A stretch of DNA of 64,000 bases, from NCBI RefSeq assembly GCF_900188485.1, contig NZ_FZPH01000005.1:62001-126000 (forward strand), read 5' to 3'. The notes under the pieces are model-generated. The model had not been told where the DNA came from. It searched no databases and saw only the letters and a program-made list of their open reading frames with translations. Positions 1 to 43,537 of this stretch are shown in pieces. The translations under genes and the position numbers were made by a program. Each line of letters starts with the position of its first letter. Positions within the stretch are counted from its first letter, which is position 1. The stretch comes from Asanoa hainanensis. GTDB taxonomy: Bacteria > Actinomycetota > Actinomycetes > Mycobacteriales > Micromonosporaceae.

Positions 1-419
1 CGGAGCGCTATGCGCAGGGCCTGCTCGGCGGGCTGCTGTACGCGGTCGACCACCAGTACGCGGACGCGCTCACCGCCGACACGCCCCCGGTCCGCCCGCG
101 CACGGTCCGCCGCGCCATCCAGGTGATGGAGGCCGACCCGACCCATCCCTTCACCACCGCGGAGCTGGCCCGGATCGCCGGGGTCTCGGCGCGCTCGCTG
201 CAGGAGGGCTTCCGGCGGCACGTCGGCTTCTCACCGATGGGCTACCTGCAACACGTTCGCCTGGGCTACGCGCGCGACGAGCTCCGCCACCCGGTGCCCG
301 GGCGCGACACGGTGGCCGCGATCGCGCACGCGTGGGGCTTCGGCCACCTGGGCCGCTTCGCGGCGGCGTACCGCGAACGCTACGGCGAGTCGCCGTCAGC
401 CACCCTGCGCGGGCGATAA
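1..419 (+). CDS. AraC-family transcriptional regulator, C-terminal part (5' end outside window)
   Basis: The reading frame is open from base 3 and enters the window from the left, so only the last ~138 residues are seen. From about base 105 it shows the two-helix-turn-helix AraC DNA-binding domain: FTTAELARIAGVSARSLQEG (first HTH), the linker GFSPMGYLQHVRL, then VAAIAHAWGFGHLGRFAAAY (second HTH) and the typical YGESPSATLRGR end. The effector-binding domain lies outside, so the ligand and targets are unknown. AraC proteins of this type usually activate a nearby catabolic or stress gene. Confidence 0.85.
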   Translation, partial: ERYAQGLLGGLLYAVDHQYADALTADTPPVRPRTVRRAIQVMEADPTHPFTTAELARIAGVSARSLQEGFRRHVGFSPMGYLQHVRLGYARDELRHPVPGRDTVAAIAHAWGFGHLGRFAAAYRERYGESPSATLRGR

Positions 420-35198: not shown

Positions 35199-36069
35199 GC
35201 AGGCGGCGCAGGGCGGCGTAGGCGGGCGGTGCCCAGGTGGGCTTGCCGCCCGGCCCACCGTCGTGGCCGATCAGGATGCCGCTCAGGACGCGGGCCATCG
35301 CCCAACCGCGGGCGCGGCGCACGGTGGCGGCATCCGGCTGGTATTCCGCGTAGCACAGGTCGACGCCGTCGTCCGGCAGCAGAAGCCAGGCTGAGGACAG
35401 GTCGTACGCTGGGTCCCCCGCGCACAGGTCGCCGAAGTCGACGACGCCGGCGATGGTGCCGTCGGCGGTGAGGACGTTCGCCGGGTGCAGGTCGGCGTGC
35501 AGCCACAGCGCCGGGCCGGTCCACGCCGGAGCGGTAACGGCGTCGTGCCAGACGGCGCGCACGGCCTCCGGGTCGGTGATCAGCCCCTGCTCGGTGGCGT
35601 AGGCCAACCCGTTGGCGAACCCCTCGGCGCGGTCGGTCAACGGCCCACCGCGCTCCCGGCCGGCGGGCGCGTCGGCCGGCGCGGGTTGGTGCAGGGCCGT
35701 CAGGAACGCCGCCAAGGACCTGGCCGCGTCGGCCTCACGCGTGACGGGGTGCAGGTCGGCGGGTGAGCCCGGCACCCAGGTGGTGACGAGCCAGGGTCGC
35801 GGGAATCGCGGGGACGGCTCGCCGAAGCGCTGTGGGACGGGGATCGGCAAGGGCAGGCGCGGCGCCAGCGCGGGCAGCCAGCGGTATTCGTTGCACAGCA
35901 ACGCGCCGGCGGTGGTCCACGGCAGGCGGACGGCCAGGTCGTCGCCGAGCCGCCACAGTTGGTTGTCCCAGCCGCGCGCGCCCAACCGCACCGGGAGTCC
36001 GGCCAGATCTGGGTGCTGCTCGCGGACGAGATCCTGGACCAGCGCCGCGGTGATCTCCACGCGCGTCAC
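35164..36069 (-). CDS. Aminoglycoside phosphotransferase-like kinase
   Basis: The 301-residue protein has the APH fold: LGARGWDNQLWRLGDDLAVR (glycine-rich loop), the catalytic loop LWLHADLHPANVLTADGTIA (HxDxxxxN) and the metal aspartate in GVVDFGDLCAGDPAYDLSSA. It phosphorylates a small hydroxylated molecule; antibiotic inactivation is possible but many family members act on sugars or cofactors. I chose the GTG at 36069; GTG 36060 also fits. It is divergent from a cobalamin riboswitch. Confidence 0.87.
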   Translation of the reverse strand: MTRVEITAALVQDLVREQHPDLAGLPVRLGARGWDNQLWRLGDDLAVRLPWTTAGALLCNEYRWLPALAPRLPLPIPVPQRFGEPSPRFPRPWLVTTWVPGSPADLHPVTREADAARSLAAFLTALHQPAPADAPAGRERGGPLTDRAEGFANGLAYATEQGLITDPEAVRAVWHDAVTAPAWTGPALWLHADLHPANVLTADGTIAGVVDFGDLCAGDPAYDLSSAWLLLPDDGVDLCYAEYQPDAATVRRARGWAMARVLSGILIGHDGGPGGKPTWAPPAYAALRRLLTRTRSPRSGC

Positions 36070-36106
36070 GGTAACGCCCGTCGCTAAACTGCGGGCCAGC
36101 GAAACT

Positions 36107-36238
36107 GACGGCTGCTGGAAGCCGGTGGGAAACCGGCGCGGTCGCGCCACTGTGACCGAACCCGTCGCGGGTTCGGAAGTCAGACCCAGCGCCGTCATGA
36201 GAAACCCGCTAACGGGACGCGAAATCCCTGGAGGTTCC
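36107..36238 (+). promoter_or_regulatory. Cobalamin riboswitch
   Basis: The RNA leader contains the hallmark segments in order: GCTGGAAGCCGGTGGGAAAC near 36114, the invariant GCGCCACTGTGACC at about 36145-36157, and GGAAGTCAGACC at 36175-36186. GACGGC at 36107-36112 pairs with GCCGTC at 36191-36196 to close the core, and CGAACCCG with CGGGTTCG forms an internal hairpin. After the core, GACGCGAAATCCC precedes the GGAGG ribosome site at 36230-36234, consistent with translational control by adenosylcobalamin-type ligand. The regulated gene is not an obvious B12 gene. Confidence 0.92.
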
Positions 36239-36778
36239 ATGACCGGCCGCGGCCGCGACCCTTCGGTGTTCGTGGCGGCCGGCACCGCGGTCGTCGGGGC
36301 GGTCGTCGCCGGCGCCCAGGTGGCCCGCACGCACACCGTCGTGCTGGTCCTGCTCGGCGTCGCGGTCTGCGCCGGTGTGCTCGGCGCGCGGGCCGTGGCC
36401 CGGCGCCGACCCGCTCGCGCCACCCTGGTGACGGACCGCCACCTCGCCGGGCGCGTCGCCGCGCTGATGCGGGCCGGCGGTTGGCGCCAGGTGGCGGTCA
36501 GGCCGGCGATGGGGCGCGTCGGCGCCGACGTGGTCGGGATCGCCGCGGACGGCCGCGGCTGGCTGCTGCGGTGCCACCAGGACGCCACGGCGCTCGACGC
36601 CGCCGACGTGTACCGCTTTACCGACGCGGCCCGCTATCTGCGGCGCGGAGACGTGACCGTCCTGGTCACCGCCGGAGCGGTGCCCGCACCGGTGCGGGAG
36701 GCGGCGTTGTCGGCCGGGGTCATGCTGATGGACTCCGCACGTCTGGCGTGGTGGGCCGACGTGCAGAGACGAGGCTAG
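36239..36778 (+). CDS. Two-span membrane protein with degenerate Mrr-type nuclease fold
   Basis: The 179-residue protein starts behind GGAGGTTCC, directly after the cobalamin riboswitch. Two membrane spans (VFVAAGTAVVGAVVAGAQVA and HTVVLVLLGVAVCAGVLGA) are followed by a domain resembling Mrr_cat/restriction-endonuclease folds: VTDRHLAGRVAALMRAGGWR, GADVVGIAADGRGWLLRCHQ, then VTVLVTAGAVPAPVREAAL. The first acidic residue is kept (GAD), but the usual QxK triad end reads RCH, so catalysis is doubtful. The link to B12 is unexplained; the leader may have been inherited from a lost cobalt or cobalamin gene. Confidence 0.75.
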   Translation: MTGRGRDPSVFVAAGTAVVGAVVAGAQVARTHTVVLVLLGVAVCAGVLGARAVARRRPARATLVTDRHLAGRVAALMRAGGWRQVAVRPAMGRVGADVVGIAADGRGWLLRCHQDATALDAADVYRFTDAARYLRRGDVTVLVTAGAVPAPVREAALSAGVMLMDSARLAWWADVQRRG

Positions 36779-41672: not shown

Positions 41673-42410
41673 TCACTGGTACTGGTTGCGCGGCGGGTCG
41701 ATCCGTACCCATGTCTGCACGTCGACGTACGGGATCTGTTCTCCGTTGACCGCGTCCGTGCCGACCTTGGCGGAGTATTTCCCGGTGACCTCGATCCAGG
41801 TGTCCGCGGGCAGGTCGACGGGGGCGCCGCCGGTCATGCCGAGTTTGATCGGCCGGCCGTCGGCCGCGCAGCACGACAGGATCATGCGCGTGAGCATGAG
41901 CTCGCCGGCGGCACCGGGGCTGACGAACCCGGTCATCTTGACCGTGCGGTCGCCGATCGAGGTGCCGTTGTCGTAGACCGCGCGGGACGCGTACTCCAGC
42001 ACGCTGATCTCGGCGGGGTCGCCCGGCGGCAGGGGCGGGTAGTCGGAGATCGCCTGGCTCGACAGCGCCGTCCCGGCCTGGCCGGCCGCGAACGAGCCCA
42101 GCGCCGGCGGCGCCACGAGCAGCAGGCCGATGACGGGCAGGACGAGCAGCCATCCGACGGCGGGCCCGTGCCCGTCGTGGTCGTGCCCGTGGCCGTCGTC
42201 GGCGCTGTCCCTGGCCTGTCCTTTTCCGAGCTGCTGGCGCAGGTCGTGGACGAGGGTCATGACCGCGGCGACGACCAGCACCGCGCCGGCCGCGATCAGG
42301 AACGGCTGGAGGCCTTCCTTGACGTACCGCAGGAAGACGTCGGTCAGGCTGGCCTTGAGCACCGCCCCGCCGAGGAGCAGCAGCACGACGCCTTGCGCTT
42401 GCCGGTTCAC
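41673..42410 (-). CDS. TIGR03943-family permease subunit
   Basis: The 245-residue protein begins MNRQAQGVVLLLLGGAVLKA (GTG overlapping the upstream stop, GTGA). Four membrane spans with a His/Asp-rich cytoplasmic loop (DDGHGHDHDGHGP) are followed by an extracellular domain with VKMTGFVSPGAAGELMLTRM, ILSCCAADGRPIKLGM and the family end YVDVQTWVRIDPP. It partners with the DUF318 permease encoded just upstream. The His loop suggests metal binding; family members are sometimes Zur-regulated, but I see no clear Zur box. Confidence 0.88.
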   Translation of the reverse strand: MNRQAQGVVLLLLGGAVLKASLTDVFLRYVKEGLQPFLIAAGAVLVVAAVMTLVHDLRQQLGKGQARDSADDGHGHDHDGHGPAVGWLLVLPVIGLLLVAPPALGSFAAGQAGTALSSQAISDYPPLPPGDPAEISVLEYASRAVYDNGTSIGDRTVKMTGFVSPGAAGELMLTRMILSCCAADGRPIKLGMTGGAPVDLPADTWIEVTGKYSAKVGTDAVNGEQIPYVDVQTWVRIDPPRNQYQ

Positions 42411-43444
42411 AGGATCACCGCTCCCACTCCGACCGCGACGAGCACCGCGACCATGAACGTGGCCGGCGAGAACCGGGTCGCGAACCGCCGGCCGAACACG
42501 CCGGTCTGCATGGAGATCAGCTTGAGGTCGACCATCGGGCCGACCACCAGGAACACCAGCCGCGAGGTCAGCGAGAACTGCGACAGGGACGCGGCGACGA
42601 ACGCGTCGGCCTCCGAGCAGATCGACAGGACCACGGCCAGGACCGCCAGCGCGAGGACCGACAGCACCGGGTTGTCGGCGAGGGTGAGCAGCCACCGCTC
42701 CGGCACCACCACGTTGATCGTGGCGGCGGCCATCGCGCCGACGACCAGGAAGCCGCCCGCGTGGATCACGTCGTGCCGCACCGCCGCCCAGAACGCGGTC
42801 AGCTTGCCGAGGCCCTCGTCGTGGCGGCGCGGCAGCCGGATCCACTCGGCCTTGCCGAGGCGCAGCCAGAGCCAGCCCATGACCATCGCGACGACCAGGC
42901 TCGCGGCGCCACGCGCGACGACCATCTCGGGGTTGTTCGGGAACGCGACCGCGGTGGCGGTCAGCACGATCGGGTTGATCGCCGGCGCGGCCAGCAGGAA
43001 CGCGAGCGCGGCGGCGGGTGTGACGCCGCGCCGGATCAGCGACCCGGCGATCGGCACGGACCCGCACTCACAGCCGGGCAGCACCACGCCGGCCACGGAC
43101 GCCACCGGCACGGCCAGCGCGGGATGCCTCGGGAGGGCCTTGGCCCAGAACGAGGGCGGCACGAACACCGCGATCACCGCGGAGAGCACGACGCCGAACA
43201 CCAGGAACGGCACCGCCTGCACCATCACGGACACGAACACGGTGGTCCAGGTCTGCAGCCGCGGGCTGGAGATGGCACCGGACACCGGGCCGCGGAACAC
43301 GACGAGCAGCACCAGCACGGCGGTGAGCACCTCGACCGACCCGATGCGGTCGCCGAAGACGCGCCGAGGGCGCTCGGGCGGTGGTTCACTCTCCCCGGTG
43401 GGGGCACCTGGGTGGTGGTGCCCTTCCGTGGTCTGGGCCGTCAC
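42407..43444 (-). CDS. DUF318-family membrane permease
   Basis: The 345-residue protein has about eight membrane spans and the signature GVVLPGCECGSVPIAGSLIR and ICSEADAFVAASLSQFSLTS, with a repeat of the P-loop-like GPMVDLKLISMQTG. DUF318 permeases associate with a TIGR03943 partner, as here, and are thought to move an ion or small metal-related substrate. The start is GTG 43444 or 43453. A His-rich N-terminus (GHHHPGAP) may bind metal. Confidence 0.87.
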   Translation of the reverse strand: MTAQTTEGHHHPGAPTGESEPPPERPRRVFGDRIGSVEVLTAVLVLLVVFRGPVSGAISSPRLQTWTTVFVSVMVQAVPFLVFGVVLSAVIAVFVPPSFWAKALPRHPALAVPVASVAGVVLPGCECGSVPIAGSLIRRGVTPAAALAFLLAAPAINPIVLTATAVAFPNNPEMVVARGAASLVVAMVMGWLWLRLGKAEWIRLPRRHDEGLGKLTAFWAAVRHDVIHAGGFLVVGAMAAATINVVVPERWLLTLADNPVLSVLALAVLAVVLSICSEADAFVAASLSQFSLTSRLVFLVVGPMVDLKLISMQTGVFGRRFATRFSPATFMVAVLVAVGVGAVIL

Positions 43445-43537
43445 GTCGGACACGGTAGCGGACAAATATCTCGTGAGGTGCTGTCCGATCGGGTCCCCGC
43501 CGTTCGTGGAGTCATCAGCCGAAGAAAAGGAGCCGAC

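Follow-up and report, generated by a model that had tools for sequence, protein, structure and literature searches.

A cobalamin riboswitch upstream of a restriction-fold protein points to a putative accessory of B12-independent ribonucleotide reductase

Cobalamin riboswitches are known mainly from genes for B12 synthesis, B12 uptake, and B12-independent isozymes. In the 64,000-nt stretch of Asanoa hainanensis DNA analyzed here (the window), the first-pass annotation placed such a riboswitch in front of a gene for a 179-aa membrane protein with a degenerate Mrr-type nuclease fold. Why would a restriction-fold protein be put under B12 control? Two accounts were offered at that stage, either the loss of a cobalt or B12 gene and recapture of its leader, or an undescribed B12-linked role of the protein family. 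In the open-licence literature, searched by titles and abstract starts, no Mrr-type protein is linked with a cobalamin riboswitch. Feature coordinates are collected in Table 1.

The leader scores 43.2 bits with the Rfam model RF01482 (E 7.5e-7 over the 351 bases scanned); with RF00174 it scores 31.4 bits, where the cut-off is 31.5 (E 1.1e-5 when the whole 8.6-Mb genome was searched). Both E-values are significant, and both scores lie below the curated Rfam score. Because the RF01482 score is under the gathering score of 50, a scan of the whole window at gathering thresholds listed no match. The short cbtB riboswitch of the same genome likewise falls under both cut-offs, with 48.3 bits for RF01482 and 26.2 bits for RF00174. 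An Rfam cut-off is a curation threshold and not a property of the RNA, and we therefore class the leader as a cobalamin riboswitch by its features. It contains the conserved core GCCACUG and AAGUCAGA, and its stems carry compensatory changes. We examined the structure in an alignment of seven riboswitches, comprising three of the window-gene family, the cbtB riboswitch of this genome, and three with unidentified downstream genes. The named structure pairs 90.8% of cells, as compared with 31 to 46% when the partners are slid. Seven pairs changed on both sides, a number reached by 3 of 500 shuffles; all seven belong to either the closing or the variable stem. Further pair types were no more numerous in this alignment than in the shuffles (206 of 500). 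These data confirm, at the level of sequence and predicted structure, that the leader is a cobalamin riboswitch aptamer and more than a chance resemblance. The closing stem had earlier been drawn at 36107–36112/36191–36196, which is right to within one base. Adenosylcobalamin is the probable ligand. The hexamer upstream of the aptamer is a candidate promoter element, with counterparts in the relatives from genomes G004 (TAAGCT) and G056 (TAGACT) located 15 to 17 nt from their aptamers.

Downstream of the aptamer, the sequence CCCG-CTAA-CGGG overlaps GGGA-CGCGAAA-TCCC (P13) and is followed by a T, GGAGG, and the ATG; the first-pass annotation had read GGAGG ahead of the start codon. The two hairpins use the same GGG and are thus mutually exclusive, with predicted energies of −5.6 kcal/mol for the alternative hairpin and −3.4 kcal/mol for P13 alone. 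As the alternative hairpin is not clearly kept among relatives, it is only suggested. In the relatives from G004 and G056, the aptamer also has a ACGGGACGCGA-n-ATCCC block with GGAGG on its 3′ side, and the cbtB riboswitch of this genome is followed by a nearly identical block. Complementarity between L5 and L13 (UCGCG/CGCGA) is present in the window, G004, and G056. In the seven-riboswitch alignment, the P13 and kissing-loop pairs are conserved and show no covariation; one row (G324) is misaligned at P13, which counts against P13. According to PMC10653944, the L5 consensus is UCCCG, L13 of the P. megaterium metE example pairs as CGGGA, and the kissing loop stabilizes P13 so that the ribosome-binding site is occluded in translational examples. 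Both window loops depart from UCCCG/CGGGA, and complementarity is thus kept through change on both sides. Like the translational adenosylcobalamin riboswitches described in that source (E. coli btuB, env8HyCbl), the leader combines the aptamer core and closing stem with P13 and a possible kissing loop next to the ribosome-binding site. It differs from them in being a short form just under the Rfam cut-offs, in its UCGCG/CGCGA loops, and in controlling a gene outside the known B12 families. The window leader thus appears to have a translational-type expression platform. With plentiful adenosylcobalamin, the aptamer would dock L5 on L13, P13 would form against the Shine–Dalgarno sequence, and translation would be turned off; when B12 is scarce, an alternative fold would leave the Shine–Dalgarno sequence open and the protein would be made. 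According to PMC10653944, every corrinoid riboswitch described earlier is a repressing one, and an activating one is added there; the sign of the window switch is therefore inferred and is probably repressing.

Four other cobalamin riboswitches were found in this genome at E ≤0.001 (Table 1), so that with the window copy there are five, in a B12 regulon that otherwise looks ordinary. The likeness of its leader to the cbtB riboswitch leaves open an ancient copy from a cobalt-transporter gene.

Table 1. Features of the riboswitch-controlled gene in the window and other cobalamin riboswitches of the genome.
Feature	Position	Strand	Basis
TAAACT, −10-like hexamer, 15 nt 5′ of the aptamer	36085–36090	+	Read from sequence
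Cobalamin (AdoCbl-type) riboswitch aptamer	36106–36197	+	Covariance-model matches; compensatory changes in stems
Closing stem of aptamer	36106–36112 with 36191–36197	+	Covariance match, compensatory changes
Loop L5, UCGCG, putative kissing-loop partner of L13	36142–36146	+	5 bp complementarity with 36218–36222; kept in G004, G056
Alternative hairpin CCCG-CUAA-CGGG	36205–36216	+	Minimum-energy fold
P13 hairpin GGGA-CGCGAAA-UCCC	36214–36228	+	Motif common to G004, G056, and cbtB riboswitch
L13 loop CGCGA	36218–36222	+	Complementary to L5
Shine–Dalgarno GGAGG, one base 3′ of P13	36230–36234	+	Sequence
ATG of 179-aa gene	36239	+	Sequence
179-aa protein gene	36239–36778	+	ORF; Mrr_cat PF04471
Two hydrophobic helices	Residues 8–28 and 33–55		AlphaFold model, low to moderate confidence
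Mrr_cat restriction-endonuclease-like domain	Residues 72–172		Pfam, alignment, models
Riboswitch 5′ of nrdA-nrdB	C31		Fetched surroundings
Riboswitch 5′ of magnesium-chelatase-like gene, head of apparent cobalamin-synthesis cluster	C22:266058		By eye
Riboswitch 5′ of cbtB-cbtA	C22:276889		Under both Rfam cut-offs
Riboswitch 5′ of periplasmic-binding-protein gene, ABC-transporter genes behind	C15		Fetched surroundings

A family profile (A1), built from nine members and run on 354 Micromonosporaceae genomes with an E limit of 1e-12, separates nine intact members (178–200 bits) from everything else (at most 91.4 bits, including a fragment in G003 at 73.4 bits). Beyond Micromonosporaceae, no members were found in 394 genomes sampled at class level, where the E limit was 1e-9 and every match except that of the window gene scored at most 75.5 bits, or in 397 genomes sampled at order level (E limit 1e-20). 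All nine intact members stand under a cobalamin riboswitch, five of them via nrdA-nrdB and four (the window gene, which is that of G000, and those of G004, G056, and G075) under one of their own. The own riboswitches of G004 and G056 score 39.5 and 50.9 bits. The G075 leader reaches only 16.1 bits with RF00174 (E 0.047); with R1, a model built without G075, it reaches 51 bits (E 1.4e-11) and the aptamer is covered. P13 was not found in the G075 leader, and three of the four stand-alone copies keep both aptamer and P13. The G075 riboswitch (L071:5635–5724) also has no evident Shine–Dalgarno sequence, and its closing stem runs, on the 3′ side, right up to the presumed ATG, so that this stem itself might be the switch.

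Nuclease-like paralogues served as a control, consisting of fetched loci from which repeats of the same genome (most of L088–L108) were left out. R1 found a riboswitch in 0 of 51 loci at E ≤0.1 (best 14.4 bits, E 0.12), with matches between E 0.1 and 1 in three loci; since the loci reach at most ∼1.5 kb upstream, this control covers riboswitches of a gene's own, and one heading a long operon would be missed. R1 scores long nrdA-type riboswitches low (18.8–24.1 bits). For 12 of the 51 loci, a search against the complete Rfam set at E 0.1 also listed none. Loci this short can miss the riboswitch at an operon head, as Rfam shows none in L010 and L011, which belong to nrdAB-linked members. Homologues never preceded by this leader had been named as the outcome that would leave only a chance juxtaposition; every intact family member is riboswitch-linked, and with nine of nine members against none of 51 paralogue loci, chance juxtaposition is rejected. 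The family's place in the B12-limitation regulon is well supported by this pattern of gene neighborhoods, which also supports the earlier proposal of an undescribed B12-linked role.

The window protein matches Mrr_cat (PF04471) with E 2.9e-7 and 31.1 bits, over a cut-off of 21. In its AlphaFold model, the N-terminal helices are weak and the alpha/beta domain is confident. The membrane span of the first-pass annotation is not a family trait, as an alignment read by eye shows a two-span hydrophobic N-terminus in only two of the nine members, those of the window and G004. Glu, Asp, and Q-x-K are the catalytic residues of Mrr-type nucleases. In the window protein, D97 is kept and Q-x-K is replaced by R111-C112-H113, as had been noticed. 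Across the family alignment, the Asp is present in all nine intact members and the FE and QxK motifs in none; eight members, including the window's, read R-C-H, and the G004 member reads R-C-P. D97, R111, and C112 are invariant, the His is nearly so, and 29 alignment columns are invariant in all nine. By contrast, all 18 paralogues in the set examined, which took in 18 of 20 family-level loci, keep the FE, Asp, and QCK motifs. The site Cys is common to the QCK paralogues and the family and is not a new feature. The family thus shares with Mrr_cat restriction endonucleases, including Micromonosporaceae paralogues with a hydrophobic N-terminus, a common fold, the active-site Asp, and, in two of nine members, that N-terminus; it differs from the paralogues in lacking FE and QCK, in its riboswitch linkage, and in mostly lacking the hydrophobic segment. 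Values of dN/dS range from 0.25 to 0.74 over 36 pairs of members and are all <1; the values are rough because the method is simple and the G+C content high, and they show moderate constraint only. What the first-pass annotation called degenerate is more accurately a derived R-C-H site that the family conserves.

For a soluble relative encoded behind nrdAB, the model has a mean pLDDT of 89. Its best PDB matches in Foldseek are MspJI (E 1.0e-3) and EndoMS (E 2.2e-3), with Can2/Cdn1 and polymerase chain E lower among the matches; all are weak but agree with the Pfam assignment. Several of the matches are chain E of RNA polymerase I/II/V structures, which we take to be Rpb5. Rpb5 is a non-catalytic restriction-fold module, an example of this fold used without nuclease activity; the match is weak (E at least 0.026) and gives no sign of shared descent or function. 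PDB sequences yielded only two weak matches (E 0.064 and 0.88), and NCBIfam, searched with three members, only weak ones far under cut-off. Plasmid records gave three matches of <40% identity, two of them annotated as restriction endonucleases, and phage records gave none. The sequence and defence libraries searched name no function for the family. A role in anti-phage defence was considered and rejected, as PADLOC had no match for the two members tried. Retention of the fold without the nuclease motifs suggests binding rather than cutting, and the family is probably non-catalytic. Were the protein catalytically active, as a divergent phosphodiesterase or nuclease with a D/R-C-H site that is induced by B12 limitation for DNA repair, the weak fold matches to the DNA-cleaving MspJI, EndoMS, and Can2/Cdn1 and the near-complete conservation of the site would be explained; the absence of FE and of the Lys from all nine members, residues with a catalytic role in this fold, and the replacement of the His in one member make this quite unlikely.

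The main link of the family is to the B12-independent ribonucleotide reductase, which goes beyond what the first-pass annotation had in view. In five genomes (G029, G031, G054, G062, and G069), the family gene is third after nrdA-nrdB, on the same strand and 9 to 53 nt from nrdB, with some uncertainty about the start of the G062 gene. All five have a riboswitch of 97.0 to 104.5 bits located 99 to 136 nt 5′ of nrdA, by our own gene calls, and in three of them metE with its own riboswitch follows. Pfam, run on two nrdB genes and on a single nrdA and metE, confirms these assignments; BLAST grouped the remaining genes with them. The presence of the small subunit NrdB identifies a class I ribonucleotide reductase. 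Cotranscription of the family gene with nrdAB is predicted from this arrangement. The window copy stands away from nrdAB; this genome's nrdAB is on another contig, followed by a VKOR gene. A survey of nrdB in one genus located 57 places in 54 of 67 genomes, and among the 30 loci read, to ∼0.7 kb past nrdB, an intact family gene lies 3′ of nrdB in five and a remnant in one (G018). Only five of the nine members are nrd-linked. As most NrdAB systems read do not have the family gene, the protein is expected to play an accessory part and to be dispensable as a subunit.

NrdJ is the B12-dependent class II reductase and NrdAB the B12-independent class I enzyme; NrdS is an AraC-type regulator. NrdJ is encoded, over cut-off, in 13 of the 14 genomes checked, the exception being G054. 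That genome may depend on riboswitch-led NrdAB alone, or the gene may be missing from the draft. In Streptomyces coelicolor, according to PMC4991794, vegetative growth relies primarily on NrdJ, and nrdABS responds to coenzyme B12 via a riboswitch. By analogy, the family would be expected to be made with NrdAB when B12 is short. The five nrdAB-linked relatives resemble Streptomyces nrdABS in having a riboswitch-led nrdA-nrdB pair with a small third gene; they differ in that the third gene encodes a restriction-fold protein, and the window copy stands alone.

Two genomes have two nrdAB loci, each with its own cobalamin riboswitch (C16 and C70 in G031; C34 and C43 in G069), and the family gene is beside one only. 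In G031, G062, and G069 (L072–L074), riboswitch-led units form a cluster of nrdAB with the family gene, metE, a thioesterase gene, and an unknown gene, which is MerR-like in G069; the G062 cluster also contains cbtBA with its own riboswitch. Since the linked nrdAB is a second copy in G031 and G069 and lies within such a cluster, the gene might merely be carried along by a mobile B12-regulon island and have no function of its own. The 29 invariant columns, dN/dS below 1 in 36 of 36 pairs, and the retention of aptamer and P13 by most stand-alone copies render this highly improbable. Alternatively, the protein might handle cobalt or B12 itself, binding metal or corrinoid via D97, R111, H113, and D115 instead of partnering NrdAB. 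This would fit the platform that the window riboswitch shares with the cbtB riboswitch and the presence of cbtBA in the G062 cluster. It is unlikely, given that in all five clustered genomes the gene adjoins nrdB and no cobalt or B12 gene, that the His is Pro in G004, and that the Cys also occurs in QCK paralogues.

A tree of the nine members and 18 paralogues was built from domain envelopes and rooted at the midpoint; the family stem is long. The family is one clade (support 100/100). Within it, the earliest branch is G056, the next is G075, and the window then pairs with G004 (96/67); all five members linked to nrdAB fall into one nested clade (95/94). The simplest reading would be that the gene was first under its own riboswitch and later made one move behind nrdAB, exchanging one B12 control for another; B12 control thus seems to have outlived a change of address. 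The G003 genome keeps the window gene order without a counterpart of window positions ∼36069–36598, a gap that spans, and so removed together, the riboswitch and residues 1 to 115. In G018, an N-terminal remnant of ∼30 profile positions lies 3′ of nrdB. The family is narrow and has decayed at least twice, in G003 and G018. This rarity and occasional loss, together with the close likeness of the leader to the cbtB riboswitch, would be expected of a chance capture, in which a cbtBA-type leader was copied before a gene unrelated to it, with separate insertion accidents behind each of the nrdAB cases. We regard that as very unlikely, because all nine members are under B12 control in two different arrangements, none of the 51 paralogue loci is riboswitch-linked, and the control was kept through the gene's move. 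Nor would a single accidental capture, as in the earlier suggestion of a lost cobalt or B12 gene with a recaptured leader, account for a pattern of nine in nine.

The account that we consider probable on balance is a translational cobalamin riboswitch controlling a non-catalytic restriction-fold accessory of the B12-independent NrdAB, within a B12-limitation regulon. The protein would be a small domain of the restriction-endonuclease fold, with a conserved D/R-C-H site but no nuclease motifs, and it could serve NrdAB as an adaptor, as a DNA- or nucleotide-binding protein, or as a regulator. Under B12 shortage, NrdAB would take over dNTP synthesis from NrdJ. The direction of switching, the partnership with NrdAB, and the molecular role are predictions from sequence and gene context. 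More tentatively, the family may descend from a restriction endonuclease that lost its catalytic residues and came to serve class I ribonucleotide reductase as a B12-responsive partner, first under its own riboswitch and later behind nrdAB, as an undescribed accessory or regulator of B12-independent dNTP supply. Two different arrangements thereby tie an unnamed protein family to the B12 regulon, and a part played by it when NrdAB replaces NrdJ can be tested directly. The family looks like an undescribed helper for B12 shortage and, if this is true, would be a nuclease fold turned non-catalytic metabolic accessory, found via its riboswitch.

Two further observations concern other genes. The thioesterase of the three clusters is a 4HBT acyl-CoA thioesterase (Pfam on two of three), encoded ∼41 to 142 nt behind a cobalamin riboswitch at L072:13652–14113 (G031), L073:16126–16671 (G062), and L074:3882–4382 (G069), with RF00174 scores of 71.6, 109.4, and 46.8 bits, respectively. 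It may relieve acyl-CoA build-up upon failure of a B12-dependent mutase. In the window itself, positions 41673–43453 of the minus strand encode an ArsP_1-type permease with a DUF1980 protein directly behind.
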